This document shows positions 12,833 through 59,521 of a stretch of DNA of 64,000 nucleotides, in pieces. The position numbers and the translations under genes are program-made. The notes below the pieces were generated by a model. It made no database searches. It worked only from the letters and a program-made list of their open reading frames with translations, and was not told the origin of the DNA. This stretch comes from Anaeromyces robustus (Eukaryota; Neocallimastigomycota; Neocallimastigomycetes; Neocallimastigales; Neocallimastigaceae): contig MCFG01000109.1 of assembly GCA_002104895.1 (NCBI GenBank), forward strand, positions 1 through 64,000, read 5' to 3'. Every line of letters begins with the position of its first letter. Positions within the stretch are counted from its first letter, which is position 1.

Positions 12833-13702
12833 AAAATTATTATAAATAAAATTCATTATAATTTCTTTTTAGTCCTCCACTTTTATGCAAAAATTTATAT
12901 ATTTAATCAACAAAAATTTTAAATTTTAATATAAAATTAAATTAAAATTTTAAATAGTAGTACCAAAAAAAATTAAAAGGATACAAAATATATAATTTTA
13001 AAGAATATTGTTTTTAATAATATATTATTTTATTATTATTACATAGATTATTTTTTTCTATTTTTTATATATGGATATATCAATTATTTATAAATATTCC
13101 TTCTTTTTTAATTTAATATATTAATTAAAAAAGACAAATATATAATAGCATAATATGTAATTTTTGTTGAAAAAACTATTAAAAATAATAAATAATATAC
13201 CAAGAAAAAAAATAAAAAGAAAAAGAATATTCAATTTTTATAATAATTATAACTCTAAATTATACAAAATATATTCTTAGTATATCAATTTATATTTTTA
13301 AAAATGATTAAGCATGTTACATTAAAAATATTATTATTATTATTATTAAAATAATAAATTAATAATTATATTTCCTATAAAAGAAATGAATTTTTCTCAA
13401 AAACTAAAAAAATTTTTAATCATTAATAAATAAATAGTTTATTTTTTTTTAATAAAAAAAATAAAACTTTTATTAAAAAAATTATTTTAAATATTGATTA
13501 TTTAAAAATATATATATATTAAATATATATATATATTAATATATATTATATAATAAGATAAATAATTATAAACTTATTTAATTCAATACAACCTAAGCCA
13601 AGAAGCCTGAGCATAAATCAAAATAAAAAATTTAAAAAACTACATATATTATCTTTTATATAAAATATTTATTACAATTTATTATATTTTAATAAAATAA
13701 AC

Positions 13703-16700
13703 ATGAAATTTGATAAATTATTATTAATCTCTCAAATTATTGCTTTAAGTAATGCTGGTCTCATTAAAAGAAATGACAAATGTTCTTGTAGTGTTAACCC
13801 AACTATTCGTAAGGATTGTGGTTATTACGGTATAAATGAATCTGAATGTGTTAACATTGGTTGTTGTTGGGGTCCAACTAATGTTGGTGGTGCCCCATGG
13901 TGTTATTATACTGCTAGTGGTGGTAAAACTAGTGATTGTTCTGAAGAAAGTAAAACTTGTCAAGTAGATGTTAATAAACGTGAAGATTGTGGTTTTTATG
14001 GTATTAACAAAGATGGTTGTCAAAGTCGTGGTTGTTGTTGGGCTGAATCTAATATTTCTGGTATTCCATGGTGTTTCTTCCCAAATATAACTAAAAAAAC
14101 AACTACTACTACAACTACTTCAACTAGAACTACAAGTACTATACCACCAACTACTAAAACTACTACAACAACTGTTCCACCAAAAACTACTACTACTACT
14201 ACAACAACTGTTCCACCAAAAACTACTACTACTACTAAAACTACTACAACAACTGTTCTACCAAAAACTACTACTACTACTACTTCTGTTCAAACTTCAC
14301 CAACCCCATATAATAAAATTTGTGAAGTAAATGAAATCAATCGTAAAGATTGTGGTTATTTAGGTATTACAAAAAATGAATGTGAAGCTGGAGGTTGTTG
14401 TTGGTCTGAATCCAATACTGAAGGTATTCCATGGTGTTTCAATGAACCAGGTAAAAATATTCGCATTAAAAAGGAACCAATTACAGTTCGTTTCTTAAAA
14501 CCTGAAGGATGGAATAATATTAATCTCTGGGCTTGGGATGCTAATGATAAAAACCTTTATGGTGAAGTTTGGCCAGGAAAACCAATTACTGATCTTGGTA
14601 ATGGTTGGATCAGTTATACTTTCCCAGAAGATATTAGTAATGTTAATGTTCTTTTCAATAATGGTGTTGACCAAACTAAAGATGTTAGAGGAATTAGCAC
14701 TTCTACATGTCTTAAATTATTTAATGATAATGTTTTAAAAACTGTTGATTGTGGTTTAGATTTAAGTATTTGTAAAATTCCAGGACTTCAAAGAATTCAA
14801 TGTGGTTCTAAAGGAATAACTCCAGAACAATGTACTGACTTAAATTGTTGTTATAAGGATGATGAATTAACTGATGCTCCATCTTGCTTTTTTGGAGCTG
14901 GTATTCCTAAAAATAGTAGTACTGGTTCTTGTAATATTTTCAATCCACTTCAACGAACTCAATGTGGACCAGAAGGTATTAGTGAAAAGGATTGTACTAG
15001 AAAGGGATGTTGTTATAATGAATTAGCTGGAGCTCCATCTTGCTTTTATCATGGTCCAAATGTTCCATCTTGTATTGTAAATCAAGATGATCGTGAACAA
15101 TGTGGTATTTCTAACATTTCTCAAAATGATTGTGAAAAATTAGGTTGTTGTTTCGATCCAAGAAATAATCAATGTTTCAAAAAGGGAGCTAAAAGTACAG
15201 CTATTCTTGGTGATTGTGTTTATACTGTTACTGATTTAGAAACTTCTGATTCTGGTTTAACTGCTGTTCTTGATCTTGAAGGTAGAACCTGTCAAAAATA
15301 TGATATTGATTTCCAAACTTTAGATTTCGAAGCAAAATTTGAAACTGATACTAGACTTCATATTCATATTCAACCAACAGATATTGAAAATTATCCACAT
15401 AATGTTGATATGCCAAAACAAGCTTATCCATTTACCATTGAAAATGAACCATTAAATGATTTACAATATTCTTATGAATTAATTGATGGTCAAGATTTCC
15501 AACTTCAAGTCAAACGTAATGATGGATCTGTTGTATTTGATGGTATTTCCTTTATTTTTGAACGTCAATATCTTGAAATTTCTAAAAAAATAAAACCAAC
15601 ATCTAGTATTTATGGTTTTGGTGAAGTTCTTGCTCCATACAGAAGAAATAGTGAAAATGTTCAACATGCTTTATTTAATGCAGATAATGCTACACCAATT
15701 GGTGAGAATCTCCATGAGTTCCCCTTAGGACACCTGCGTTATTTTTTAACAGATGTGCCGCCCCAGCCAAACTCCCCACCTGACAATGTCTTCAAACTGG
15801 ATCAGTTCGTAAAAGAACCTTAACGCTAGAAAGTGGACCGTGAAGTCCAATTCCACATTATTGAATAAGTAAAAAAACAATAAAGGTAGTGGTATTTCAA
15901 GATCGCCGAAGCTCCCACTTATGCTACACCCTCTCATCCATTCTATATTGAAATGATTGATGGTAAAGCTTACGGTTTCTTCCTTAAAAATAGTCATGGT
16001 ATGGAATTTTCTATTAAGAATAATATTATGACTATTCAAATCATTGGTGGTAACTTTGATATGTACTTCTTTATGGGTCCAACTATGGATGATGTTGTTA
16101 AACAATATTATAAGGTTATTGGTGCTCCAGCTTTATTACCATATTGGTCACTTGGATGGCATCAATGTCGTTATGGTTATAAAGATATTTGGGAAGTTAA
16201 AGATGTTGTTGCTAATTATAAAAAGAATAATATTCCATTAGATACTATGTGGATTGATATTGATTTTATGGATGGATATAAAGATTTTACTTATCATCCA
16301 CAAAAATTCCCAGTTCCAGAAGTTAAGAAATTTGTTAATGATTTGAAAAAGAATCATCAATATTATGTTAATATGATTGATCCAGCTATTTCAACTACTA
16401 AACAATACGGACCATATGAACGTGGTCTTGAAAAAGATATTTTCATAAAGGATAAATACGGTAAGAATTTCATTGGTGAAGTTTGGCCAGGTAAAACTGT
16501 ATTCCCAGATTGGCATCATCCAAATATTCTTGAATATTGGACTAATGAAATTAAATTATTTAAAGATTATGCTATGACAGATGGTAATTGGATTGATATG
16601 AATGAAGCTGCTAATTTCTGTAATGGTGCTTGTGATACACCATATGAAGATGCACCATTTGTTTTAGGAGAATTTAATCCAAGAACACCACCATTTGCTA

Positions 16701-17872
16701 TTAGTCATTTTGGTACTGGTAAGGATAGAGCTTCTTTAAAAACTAAAAATCTTGATATGGATGCTACTTACTATGGAGGTCTTATTGATTATGATATACA
16801 TAATATTTATGGTCATATGGAAGCTATTGTTACTAATAAAGCTCTTCTCAATATTGATCCAGTAAAAAGACCATTCCTTCTTTCACGTTCAACTTTCCCA
16901 GGTACTGGTAAATATGCTGCTCATTGGCTTGGTGATAATCATTCTGAATGGCCATATCTTTATTATTCTATTTCAGGTATGCTTAATTTCCAATTCTTTG
17001 GTATTCCTATGGTTGGTTCTGATATTTGTGGATTTGTTGATAATAGTAATGAAGAACTTTGTGCCCGTTGGATGGAACTTGGTGCCTTTAATCCATTTGG
17101 TAGAAATCATAATGGTTTAGGTTATGATTCTCAAGAACCATATGTTTGGGGTTCTGTTGCTGAAGCATCTCGTAGAGCTTTAGCAATTCGTTATAAGATT
17201 CTTCCATATATGTACACTCTTTTAGTTAGAACTCATACTCATTCCGAAATGATTCTTTATTCATTTGCTGGTGAATGGCCAAATGACTCTAAGGCTGCAG
17301 GTATTGATAAACAATTCCTTATGGGTAAAGGTATTTTAATTACTCCAGTTATTGAACAAGGTGCTACTTCTGTTACTGGTTACTTCCCAGAAGGTATTTG
17401 GTATGATTGGTATACTCACGAATCTTTCAGTGGTCCAACTATGAAAACTTTAACTGCTGAATTAGTTCATATCCCAGTTCATATTCGTGGAGGTTATATT
17501 ATTCCTACTCAAGGTCCATCACTTACTGTTTATGAAAACCGTAATAAACCATTTGAACTTTTAGTTGCACTTGATGCTTCTAAAAAGGCAACTGGCAGAT
17601 TATATCTTGATGACGGTGTTAGTATTAATGTTAATGGTAAATTCAGTGAAATTGAATATTCAGTTGAAAATGGTACTCTTACAGGTAAAGGTACATATAA
17701 TTATGATGAAGATCAAAAACTTCATGAAATCACTGTTCTTGGTGTTACCTCTCAACCATCAAAGGTTATTGCTAATGACAAAGAAGTTAGTTTTGATTTC
17801 TCTAAGAATACTTTAACTATTAAGAACCTTGATATCAGTATGAATGCTGACTTTACCGTTTCTTGGAATTAA
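13703..17872 (+). CDS. Secreted GH31 alpha-glucosidase with six trefoil domains and a CBM26-like module; interrupted by an rRNA-derived segment
   Basis: The product is a family-31 glycoside hydrolase expected to release glucose from alpha-glucans outside the cell. It begins with a signal peptide (about residues 1-19) and an IKR dibasic site. Trefoil (P-type) domains follow at about 28-68 and 86-125, then a Thr/Pro-rich linker to about 200. A third trefoil lies at 207-246, a starch-binding CBM26-like module (GWNNINLWAWD, GNGWISYTF) at about 258-342, and three more trefoils at about 347-482. The GH31 catalytic domain fills the rest, with nucleophile Asp in WIDMNE (codon at 16595) and acid/base Asp in HWLGDN. 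The open frame from 13703 stops at 15823, within an antisense LSU rRNA piece (15707-15934), and resumes in another frame ahead of HPFYIEMIDG. Removing 15702-15911 as an intron (donor GTGAGA, acceptor GAAG) joins both halves in phase: 3960 nt, 1319 residues, reading ATPIAPTYATPSHPFY at the junction. Without that splice the gene would be a pseudogene. Family and domains are certain; the splice is inference. Confidence 0.88.
14092..14300 (+). repeat. Thr-rich linker-encoding ACT/ACA repeat in the GH31 gene
   Basis: Tandem Thr codons punctuated by Pro-Pro-Lys. A unit reading TTTVPPKTTT recurs, giving a mucin-like, probably O-glycosylated spacer between trefoil 2 and trefoil 3. Confidence 0.85.
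15702..15911 (+). other. Candidate spliceosomal intron composed of rRNA-derived sequence
   Basis: GTGAGA at 15702 follows ATT G, and AG at 15910-15911 precedes CT CCC ACT TAT. Excision of these 210 nt brings the 5' half (remainder one base) and the 3' half into a single frame through HPFYIEMIDG. About 23 nt of rRNA-derived sequence would remain as coding sequence (APTYATP). The acceptor has only a modest pyrimidine tract, and there is no textbook branch site. This is inferred from frame only. Confidence 0.5.
15707..15934 (-). rRNA. Partial large-subunit (25S/28S) rRNA fragment, antisense within the GH31 gene
   Basis: Read on the minus strand, this segment matches eukaryotic LSU rRNA from the GAGGGTGTAG...AAGTGGGAGCTTCGG block, through ACTTATTCAAT and GACATTGTCAGGTGGGG, to AGTTTGGCTGGGGCGGCAC and GCAGGTGTCCTAAGG. 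It ends at CTCATGGAGA. The block belongs to domain V and includes the P-loop helix. Recognition rests on my memory of yeast and human LSU sequence. The conserved cores are nearly identical, while the intervening part differs as expected for another phylum. It is only about 228 nt and lacks the rest of the rRNA, so it is a displaced copy and not a functional rRNA gene. The edges share a few bases with the flanking GH31 codons, so the ends are uncertain by a few bases. Confidence 0.93.
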
Positions 17873-26818: not shown

Positions 26819-27988
26819 TTATTTTTTATTATTAAATAAAAAATTTCCTTTTCATATAAAAATTTAAAATATAAATATAATAGTGATATATAAATGTATT
26901 GCACTCAATATATTATGTAATATATAATTTAACAATTAATTAAATTATACATTGAATATATTAAATATAAATAACTTTATACCCATATAATATTTTAAAT
27001 AATTAGATATTATTATAATATATTATAATATATTAAATCAATATATTTTAATATATGTTAATGTGATGACTTTTACCTACAGAATTATTTTTATTTTAAA
27101 ATCTTTAAAATAAAATAAAATTAAAACTTATTTCATTTCTAGTATATTATAATATATTATAAAATAAATAGTTTCCCATTCTATTATATATATTATAATA
27201 AATAAAATAAATAAAGTAATAAATAAATAATAAATAAAAATAAATAAATAAATAAAAAGAAAAAGAAAACAAATAAATTAATAAATAAGTAAATAATTAT
27301 TTAATTCTATATGATAACATTTTTTATTTTTTTATTTTTTAATTTATTTATATATTAATTATTATATTATACTTTCATTTATTTATATTATTTATTTGTT
27401 ATTTATTTATAGTGATAATTTATTAGAATTATATTTAAAATTTATTATTATATAATTAATATATTTGATTAAACTATAAACATATTCTTTTTTTTTATTT
27501 ATAAATAATTTTTAATATAAACTTTAGAAAGCTTTCAAAAAAGTATAAAAAAAGGAAGAAAAGACTTCAAAAAAATTTTTTTTTTCATATCATTTTAAAA
27601 TCGTCTAATTAATAATCTAACAATTATTAAGAAATAAAGTATAACGAAATTGTAGAAACCAGTTTTAACAGTATATAAATTTTTATAAATACTAAAAAAA
27701 AAAGAAAAGCTATCTTAAATCAAAAAACCTATAAAAGATATATATATAAGAATAATTGATTTCCCAAAGAACGCTTTATTAATAATTAGAAAAGAAATTA
27801 CAAAGCTCTGGAAAAGAAAAATATTATAATCAAATTATTTCTATTTTTTATATAAAAAAAAACAATATTTTATAATTATATATATAATATCTATAATATA
27901 TATAAAATTTTTTAAATATTACATTTCTGTGAACCTTTAATCTTGTTGAAATAAGAAAAACAACAAAAGAATTTTCTATAAGCTCAAA

Positions 27989-29687: not shown

Positions 29688-29791
<104 letters not shown>

Positions 29792-32700
29792 GACATTTTG
29801 TAAATTTAATAAATAAATAAATATAAATAATACCTATATATATATATTTTGCTTTAATGCTTTAATAATTTAAATAAAAATTAAAAAATAATTTTTTTTT
29901 TCAAAAATAATAGTATTTTATCACATATAATAAAAAAATTGTTAAAATATTAGTATGGATCATACATCAAATATTAAAAAATAAATTAATTTTTAAAAAA
30001 TAAAATTTTTATAATTGGTTATTAGTTATATAAAACCATTATTAGGTATATCTTTTATATCTGACATTTTATTATTAATAATAATGCTACTATTAATAAA
30101 ATTGAAAACATTTTATTTCTTTTAGTTTTTTAGTTTTCCTTTTTTTATTATATTTTTTAAGACATTTAATATGATATGAAAGTAGTTTTTAATTTAACAG
30201 AAAAAAAAATTCAAAAGATGTTAAGTTTTATATTTAAAAAAGTTAAAATTTTAATATAATTATTATTAAAACAATTAAATAGGAACTTTATTGTTTTGTT
30301 TTAAACTTTATGATATGATACTTTTTTTTTAGAAATTAAACTATTTTTTTTAATTATAAAATAACAGAACAACAAGAGTAATAATTGTAGTATTAATACA
30401 ATTAATAATATTAATTATAATCAAAAGTGATACTTTTGTATATAATTGAATAAGTATACTTAATTTTTATAACAATAATAATAAACTATATAAAAAATAT
30501 AATAATAATAGAATTATCAATGTATTTTTATAAATATAATAATTCCTTTATATATAGAAATTATATATATGAATAATATTATTCAGTAAAAAATATAATA
30601 ATTTTCAATTATTAATTATTAATAGTTTGATTTTTTAATTTTAAATTATGAAATAACAAAAAAAAAATATTACAAAGGTTTTAATAAATATAATAAATAA
30701 CTATAGATATTATTTTTAAAATTTTAATTTTTAAAGATTGCTTTTAATAATTAATATATATTGATGATGTATTAATTTTTAAATAAATTTTTATATTTAT
30801 TTTTTTTAATTTTTTAATATTTTAAAAATGAAATCCACATAACTTTTATTAAAATTATAAAAAAAACATATAAAACTATACAAAAAAATAAAAATTAAAA
30901 TTACAAAAAAAAATAATAATAATAAATTTTAATTTTTATTTTAAAATTAATATTAAAAAATAAAGTTTTTTTTATGCTTATTATTAAACTTTATTTTTTA
31001 TAAAATACGTGATATTGTGGTGCTTTTTCATTTTTAATTCTCTTTTTCATTATTATTATTATTTTTTAATTTATCATTGTATTTTTTTTTTTTTTTTTTA
31101 ATTTATTTCAATTGTTTTTCTTTCTTTTTTTTTTTTTATTTAAAAATATAATTATACAATGATTTGCTATAAAATTCGTGATTTTAGTTATTTTTTAATG
31201 CCAGCTTCTGTTTTTTTTTTTCTTTTTCTTTTATTGTTTCATTATTTATTATTTCATAATATTATGTATTTAGGTATATATTATTTTAATTAGATCAAAA
31301 TCAAAATCAAAATACTTATTGTTAATTCATTTTTCATTTTGGCATCTGTATTCATACATACATTTCTATTCATAATGATATAATTTTTATATTGTATATA
31401 TGTTTAAATTATTTTTTAAGTTTTATAAATTAAAGTATATATAAATTTTTATTTTTTTTTTATAAATTTTTTTATAACAAAATAATAAATATTAAATATA
31501 AAAAGATTTTAATTAAAATATTATGATATTTTTTGAAGAAAAAATATGATTAAATTTTTTTTTTAAAATTTAATATTTAATTTATGTATTATAATAATGA
31601 AAAAAAAAATCAAAATAAATAAATTAAAAAAATTAGAATATATAGTCTAAATATCTTAAAATATATAATTACAAAAAAAAAAAAAAAAAAAAAAAAACGT
31701 TATATTCATATTCTAGAACATTTATATCATAAAAAAATTAAAAAATCATATTTAGAAAAAAAAATTCTTTATTTTAAAAAAATATAAACTAATTTAATAT
31801 ATATAATATATATGATATTTTTAATTTATGGTATTTTTTTTTTTTTTTTAATAAATTTGTTTTATTTAATAAATTATTTATTTTTATTATTATTATTGAT
31901 ATTAAATGATAATTATTATTTAACCATCTTTTAATTTTATAATTTTTGTTAATATATAAAAAAAAATTTTTTATTTATTTAATTTTTATCAAATAATTTT
32001 TATCTTGTTATTATAATTATTTAGATTTTAGATAAATTTTAATATATCTTTAAATAAAAAAAGAAGAAAAAAAAGGAAAATAATAATAATAAAATATTTT
32101 TTTTTAATTTATTTTATTTTGATTTTTTATTTTATTTTATTTTTTATTTTTTAATGTTATAGCATTTTTAATAAATAAATTAATTAAATTTTTTTATCAT
32201 TTTATTTATAAATAATATGGATATTTAATTATTTTTTTTTATACATATTAGTTTTTAAATATTAATAATATTTTTCTTTAAAGTTGTACTTTAATCTTTT
32301 TCTTGGTGCTATTAGATATTTAAATATTAATATATAAATATTTATTATTAATATATATACATAAATATAAAATTAAAATAATGAATATTATATATAAATA
32401 TGTTATTATCATCATATATAATAAAAAATAATATATATATATTTACGTTTTGGTAGTTTGATCTTCACTCTTTTTTCTTTTATTTTCTATATATATATAT
32501 ATGTTATAAGTATTATAGATAATATAAAAATTTTTTAATTAATATTAATTATAATTTTAATAATTATTTTAAATTTTATAGCTAGTATTTAATATTTTTA
32601 ATTACCTGAATTTATACTATTTATTTTATGGATATTATTAGTTAAAATAATAATAACAATAATAAACGAAAAAGATATTGTTATATATAATGTTAAAAAA

Positions 32701-33079: not shown

Positions 33080-33664
33080 TTACTTATGTAATGGTATCGA
33101 TATTTTCATGGAAAGGGTATTTTCAGAGGATTTTTCATTATTATTAGAGGCATTAGCAGGATCTTCATTATAAAGAGGACAATCACGATTAGTTTTCATA
33201 TGACCTGTTTGACCACAACGACTACATTGAACATTTTGACGACTACTTGTACTTTCTTTTTTACTTTTATATGTTTTTGAATCCTTTTTTTCTTTATTTT
33301 TTTGTTTTAATTTTGATACATGATCTTGTGTACGTTTTTTCTTTTCTTGTTTTTTATCTTCTTCATTACCATTTGCTTGTGAAGATTCTTCATTTTGTTT
33401 ATCGATTAATTTTCTTTGACGAAGATAAGCATTTATAACTCTAGGATCTTTAACAGTTTCAACACGAACTTCTGTACCACCATTTGCACATTTTACCTTT
33501 TTTATATTATTATTTAGTTATTATCATTATTATCAATAGTTAATAATTATTTATATTTTATATATTTTTAATAACTTATTTTTAAAAAATGTATCATCAA
33601 TATCATTATTATTGATATTAATTAAAATTACTATTCTTATTATTCTTATTTTTACTAATATTAA

Positions 33665-58308: not shown

Positions 58309-59521
58309 AAAATCATTCTTTGATTTATTAGAAAATAAAAATAATTTTTTATAGTATAAGTATAATTTAATTTAAATAATAACCTTAAAAATAAAATACA
58401 AGCTAAAAAAATTATTCTTGTATTTTTATTTTGAAAATGAAAAAATCATTTTTTAATTAATTTGAAAATAAAAATATTTTTTTTTATTATATAATTTAAT
58501 TTAAATAATAACAAGATATCCAGAAAATTTTTTTAAAAAAGTTTTTTTTTCTTTTCTTTTTTTAATTTTTTAATTTTTTTTATTTTTTTAATTTATATAT
58601 CATTTCTTATCCCTTCTTAATTTTTATATGTTAGGTTATTGATAATCAGTGTAAAATAAATGTAATAATCATTTTTTTTTATTTTCTTTATATTATTAAT
58701 TAAAAAGATTAATATTTTTTTATTTTATAAAGATACAAATTTAGTATATAGCAGTCTAATATATTTTACTTATTTTTTATGTATAAATATAATAATAATT
58801 ATAATATAATAATTATAATACTCATTAATTAACCTTATTTTACTATTTTTTATCTTTTTAGTTTTATTATTTAGTATATGTATTATTTTTTTCTGATACT
58901 AATGATTTATGTTAAATAATTTAAAATAAAGTATTAAAGTATTAAAAAATACGAGAGTATATTTCTTCAAAATTTTGTGTAACTTTTTTTTTTAATCTTT
59001 TATTATATATACATATCATATGATTATGTAAATTTTTTAATAATATATAATTAGAAGAAATATTCTTAATTATTTTTTCAGTAATAAAATAATTTCATTC
59101 TTTGTGTATTATCCATATCTACAGATAATAAATTTTTTTATTAAAAATTTTAATATAATTAAAAACGATTAAAATAAGTTTTAGTTTATTATTTTTTTTT
59201 TAAAAAAAATAATAATAAAATAATAATAAAAAAATAAAATAAAATAAAATAAAATAAATAAAATAATAATAGAATATAACAAAAAATCAAAATATATAAA
59301 AAAAAATAATAAAAAGTAAAAATATAATATAATAAAATAAACTAAAGTAATTAAATATATTATAAAATAAATTAACTATCTAATAAAATAATATCTAAAA
59401 ATATTTTTTTTATTTATAGTAAATTTGAAAATAAGTTTTTAAATAAAATATCGAAAACATAAAGAATAAATTATTCAAATTTCATTAAATAAAATAAAAT
59501 AAAATAAAATAAAAAATAAAA
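58309..59521. other. Intergenic spacer between two plus-strand genes
   Basis: A/T-rich, without repeats longer than short (AAAAT)n runs (59235-59258 and 59488-59513). Nothing coding was recognised. It should hold the 3' UTR of the Sds3-like gene and the promoter of the chaperone gene. Confidence 0.6.

Follow-up and report, generated by a model that had tools for sequence, protein, structure and literature searches.

How did a fragment of large-subunit (LSU) rRNA come to lie, in antisense orientation, within the coding sequence of a conserved GH31 gene, and what has become of that gene? The question is raised by a locus of the anaerobic fungus Anaeromyces robustus, situated in a stretch of 64,000 nucleotides (hereafter the window) on contig C12 of a source assembly of 70.2 Mb in 769 contigs. 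Information regarding the identity of the insert, the state of the interrupted gene, the junctions and the other rDNA fragments of this genome is presented below, and the possible routes of insertion are considered in its light.

An LSU rRNA fragment within a GH31 gene

Our analyses have identified a fragment of LSU rRNA (25S/28S) of 220 nt on the minus strand at 15712..15931, antisense to the GH31 gene. An initial annotation of this DNA had described an antisense LSU piece in GH31 coding sequence and had named a match to LSU as the check on this reading. Both are borne out by the covariance match of the minus strand of positions 15550-16080 to RF02543 (LSU_rRNA_eukarya; 158.4 bits, E 8.5e-41; Infernal, permissive scan), which exceeds the gathering score of 50 bits for this family, and by the identity of 15709-15803, at 95 of 95 bases, with a separate LSU fragment, found on contig C523. 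A whole-window Rfam scan at default gathering settings missed the LSU insert and reported no match. The extent first given (15707..15934, about 228 nt) was correct as to place, but its limits are refined here to the 220 unambiguous nucleotides, or to 15709-15934 when the TCT common to both edges is counted. The insert has a GC content of 0.436; that of the host coding sequence is about 0.32 and that of the window as a whole 0.155. No decay is seen across the 95 bases that are comparable with the C523 fragment. The portion of the LSU that it covers presumably includes the P-loop strand (helix 80).

The interrupted gene is that of a GH31 alpha-glucosidase, a starch-degrading enzyme. Its upstream part (13703..15711, plus strand) comprises an apparent signal peptide (by eye), trefoil domains, a CBM26 and an N-terminal beta domain. 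Six Trefoil stretches and the CBM26 are recognized by Pfam in 13703-15706, and this part aligns to residues 99-262 of the solved alpha-glucosidase 7xoi_A, through the N of ATPIGEN. The downstream part (15932..17872, plus strand) is an open frame with its natural stop at 17870, and its membership of GH31 is indicated by matches over the cut-off to the GH31 barrel PF01055 (E 6.2e-117) and to PF21365 (E 3.2e-23). It starts at residue 266 of 7xoi_A, leaving a gap of three residues, one of which, a Leu, is still present in the window. Both halves share one frame, and the next stop past the insert is the natural one. Five premature in-frame stops are found, all of them inside the insert: the first (TAA, plus strand) at 15821..15823 and the others starting at 15827, 15866, 15881 and 15887. 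With these five stops in the insert, and with three paralogs that are open through the same site, the GH31 gene is most likely now a pseudogene that ends at 15821 and would have lost its function.

Paralogs and the age of the insertion

When the downstream protein was used as query against the genome, 15 matches were obtained (viz. the window, contigs C667, C135, C47 and C189, and a further ten on C769 and C28, all partial). Open frames on C667 (89%) and on C135 and C47 (64% each) match almost the entire query, and the sequence on C189 is a contig-end piece with 98.6% DNA identity to C667. The site of insertion reads NLYGSHPFY in C667, NVYGSHPFY in C135 and NIYGHHPFY in C47. The earlier statement that relatives read straight through this site agrees with the uninterrupted sequences of these three paralogs, of the contig-end C189 and of 7xoi_A. 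The 1202-aa open frame of C667 (L021, C667:246000-253500) starts with an apparent out-of-register trefoil reading and may be frameshifted near its start.

Downstream of the insert, comparison of C12 with C667 gave a dN of 0.064 and a dS of 0.328 (dN/dS ~0.2), a ratio by which the GH31 gene is judged to have been kept by purifying selection for much of its history and, because of this selection, the insertion is probably recent. Private amino-acid changes in the same region number 11 in C12 and 6 in C667, a difference that leans slightly against strict intactness of the gene up to the insertion.

Junctions of the insert

At the left edge, the native LSU, as represented by the C523 copy, reads TTCTCCATGAG and the C667 paralog reads AATCTTTATGG, and TCT alone (15709..15711) is common to the two. 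The uninterrupted copies C667 and C189 read AATCTTTATGGTTCTCATCC at the insertion site. At the right edge the host sequence reads TCTCATCC, and its TCT (15932..15934) is shared with the LSU only if the latter reads AGAGGG at this position, as we take it to do by analogy with yeast, these LSU bases being covered by no fragment found in the assembly. The bases originally proposed to be shared were TCTCC on the left and TCT on the right. All five of the former are native LSU, but only TCT occurs in the paralog as well, and the latter is present in the host, its LSU side resting on the assumed yeast sequence. In a rough model, at least three shared bases are expected by chance with a probability of 0.056 at one junction and 0.003 at both.

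Relative to C667, the nearest paralog, about 7 host nucleotides (the YG region) are absent at the site, a figure which presumes that the ancestor had the paralog's sequence there; the net gain is 213 nt and the frame is kept. The GH31 halves, which had been described as nearly contiguous (ATPIGENL followed by SHPFY), are open and in one frame, but they lack this YG region of their relatives. The TCT edges, the loss of about 7 nt against the paralog and the lack of a target duplication beyond chance are together the features of filler captured in end joining, where the empty site is taken from the paralog and the right-edge LSU sequence from yeast.

The explanation that we consider probable is that LSU rDNA (or rRNA cDNA), about 220 bp long, was recently captured as filler in the joining of a break and turned the GH31 gene into a pseudogene. 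A double-strand break would have arisen in the GH31 coding sequence, the LSU fragment, whether rDNA or rRNA cDNA, would have been captured while the break was joined, the joining would have cost about 7 host bases and left 3-base matches at the edges, and the GH31 frame would then have stopped at 15821. Break repair as the route of insertion is what we infer from these junctions.

Other rDNA fragments in the assembly

Matches to rDNA were found at 19 other places in the assembly, a number which is a lower bound, since the queries were of 326, 154 and 303 nt (LSU, 5.8S and SSU, respectively). The 326-nt LSU composite matched, besides the window, nine places (C523 twice, C20, C98, C224, C723, C431, C14, and C92), with identities to the window query of 77-100%. 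The 5.8S family was found at five places (C523, C343, C42, C136, and C305), although this family also matches in 9 of the 14 prokaryote controls, and typed SSU blocks matched at five (C756, C90, C169, and C261 twice). Longer degenerate copies are present on C14, C136 and C305.

Covariance scans recognized as rRNA the five 5.8S places, the two LSU fragments of C523 (C523a and C523b, both in one scan and one of them in another), C14, C136, C305, C756 and C169. The same scans, from which the second C261 copy was left out, did not recognize as rRNA the fragments on C20, C98, C224, C723, C431, C92, C90 and the first copy on C261, and these eight places are known by their DNA identity (E 1.9e-73 to 4e-14). 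To judge from these matches, rDNA pieces do enter this genome, about 20 of them being seen when the window insert is included; most of the others appear older and diverged, and the window insert would belong to the same genome-wide population. The C523b fragment was considered as a source of the insert and rejected, as it starts at LSU-reference position 129 and the insert at position 1.

The flanks of eight of the LSU fragments (C14 left out) have a GC content of 9-24%, and the window fragment lies in coding sequence of 28-29% GC. It is the only piece that we happened to notice in conserved coding sequence. No LSU sequence was detected in viral contigs by two pattern scans. C261 carries two copies of one SSU fragment, separated by about 3.8 kb, at 33500-33597 and 29734-29831 (L050 and L051), each time after a short reading frame (by eye), and this pair is best read as one captured piece that was apparently duplicated later together with its surroundings. 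Within the window itself, positions 13158-13239 show a weak match (79.5% over 83 nt, E 3.6e-11) to the stretch of C136 that holds a degenerate rDNA copy, and positions 2810-2877, 27084-27306 and 59186-59338 match the same stretch at 66-73%. These weak matches may represent AT-rich or repeat sequence rather than rRNA.

Four of the ten LSU fragments start at one LSU base, at GATC(CAG), exactly so in C523b, C20 and C224 and one base off in C523a. In these four (L002 and L005 on C523, L004 on C20, and L007 on C224) the shared start lies near 1501 in LSU sense orientation and the flanks are largely unlike. The C523b and C20 fragments also end at, or one base beyond, a second GATC; they share one short flank match of 33 nt, and some of the copies may have a common ancestor. 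With uniform ends, 26 of 200,000 simulations placed four of the ten ends within 1 nt of one another, in a test chosen after looking at the data. An origin by cutting at GATC was rejected for the set as a whole, as the C98 fragment is ragged there and five other LSU fragments, including that of the window, start elsewhere; two SSU fragments (C90 and C169, by eye) are likewise without a GATC start.

Alternative explanations for the insert

An assembly or library chimera, in which a high-copy rDNA piece was placed in a normal GH31 gene and the gene of the strain is intact, would account for several of these observations. The insert is without decay over its 95 comparable bases, its donor would be the commonest DNA in the cell, and it is known from the assembly and not from reads. 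In addition, no intact functional rDNA unit was met in the genome searches (the typed LSU core had 0 matches, in a search that skips very common words), which implies that either the assembly or the search dealt poorly with rDNA. Against this, a repeat misassembly does not usually take the form of 220 nt after which the adjacent codons resume with a small deletion, and the diverged rDNA pieces elsewhere (77-91%) cannot be chimeras with living rDNA. We regard a chimera as unlikely.

A somewhat poorer prospect, for the window insert, is that an rRNA fragment was reverse-transcribed and inserted by a LINE-type element. The genome does hold 13 matches to PF14529, a LINE-type endonuclease, and several of these lie in frames of >1000 aa. 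In addition, 8-nt words common to both edges were found in 2 of the 9 fragments tested (C20, p 0.02; C523a, p 0.008), so that some of the rDNA pieces may have arrived in this manner. Pieces of 28S, of 50-482 nt, are also described in a study of primate LINE-1 chimeras (PMC13174262). Neither a target-site duplication nor a 3' A-rich tail marks the window insert, however: the longest word common to its two edges is 5 nt (p 0.32), which indicates no duplication beyond chance, both edges run straight into GH31 codons (by eye), and host bases have been lost. Some of the other pieces, moreover, include spacer flanking the 5.8S (by eye), as would DNA or a precursor.

It is highly improbable that the insert is tolerated or used, either by being partly spliced as an intron or through an antisense transcript that acts on ribosomes: the net length keeps the frame and seven internal GT..AG pairs (e.g., 15809-15889) would restore it, but 209 of 400 shuffled inserts also offer such pairs, so that splice rescue was rejected as being at chance level, the splice sites lie away from the ends of the insert, the conserved YG is lost, and the sequence offered nothing in favour of either an antisense function or a rescue by splicing. 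No GT/AG was seen (by eye) at the ends of the insert, where an introner-like element would carry its terminal splice sites.

Repair machinery

Capture of the LSU fragment as filler during end joining, the reading that we prefer, was already put forward in the initial annotation. The LSU identity, the antisense orientation, the short shared edges and the small deletion fit with it, but classical non-homologous end joining is without support, there being no match to Ku. For Ku (PF02735), an exon-by-exon search of the 70 Mb gave 0 matches, and 1 of the 14 controls (a bacterium) matched; for family-A polymerase (PF00476), the 70 Mb likewise gave 0 matches, in a search where an intron-split domain could be missed, and 10 of the 14 controls matched. 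As neither was found, the usual enzymes of end joining and of templated insertion are without support in this genome, which provisionally suggests a form of joining that requires neither Ku nor Pol theta. A more extended proposal, that loss of Ku and the lack of Pol theta expose breaks to abundant rDNA, pre-cut at a preferred LSU GATC, and that the pieces form a standing insertional mutagen which is still breaking genes, is in our estimation doubtful.

Comparison with known systems

Yeast without Dna2 reportedly captures large insertions at breaks, consisting of genomic DNA that includes rDNA (work attributed to Yu and colleagues in 2018); unlike the fungus considered here, that yeast was a laboratory mutant. 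Among open-licence PMC papers, no literature on rRNA pseudogenes in anaerobic fungi was found. Fungal rRNA pseudogenes, 28S pieces in LINE-1 chimeras and captured filler are already known kinds of sequence, and the present insert adds one case to them. It also illustrates that rRNA sequence within a gene model need not mean contamination.

In filamentous ascomycetes, diverged paralogs of the 45S repeat (rRNA pseudogenes) have been attributed to RIP mutation, as stated in PMC5555474. The present fragments resemble them in being diverged rDNA paralogs in a fungal nuclear genome, but they are short, one of them lies in coding sequence, and the word 'fragments' is absent from the main text of that report. 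The chimeric LINE-1 insertions of primates contain short 28S pieces, with a median length of 269 nt and a recurrent 28S start position (PMC13174262). Short LSU pieces at new places and a recurrent start position are likewise seen here; in the primate chimeras the pieces are fused to LINE-1, whereas neither an element nor a duplication was found at the window insert.

If the insert is real in the strain, this would be a gene observed soon after its disruption by rDNA, in a genome where older pieces are numerous and Ku was not detected. A parallel in this respect is with trypanosomatids that lack Ku and in which, according to PMC6635534, many insertions are found in coding genes and are retained in working proteins. 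The two systems are alike in that Ku was, provisionally, not found here and that an insertion has occurred in a conserved gene, and they differ in that the present case is one rDNA piece bearing stops. A real insertion would make the proposal linking Ku loss with coding insertions, as presented in PMC6635534, testable in a fungus with a recognizable donor.
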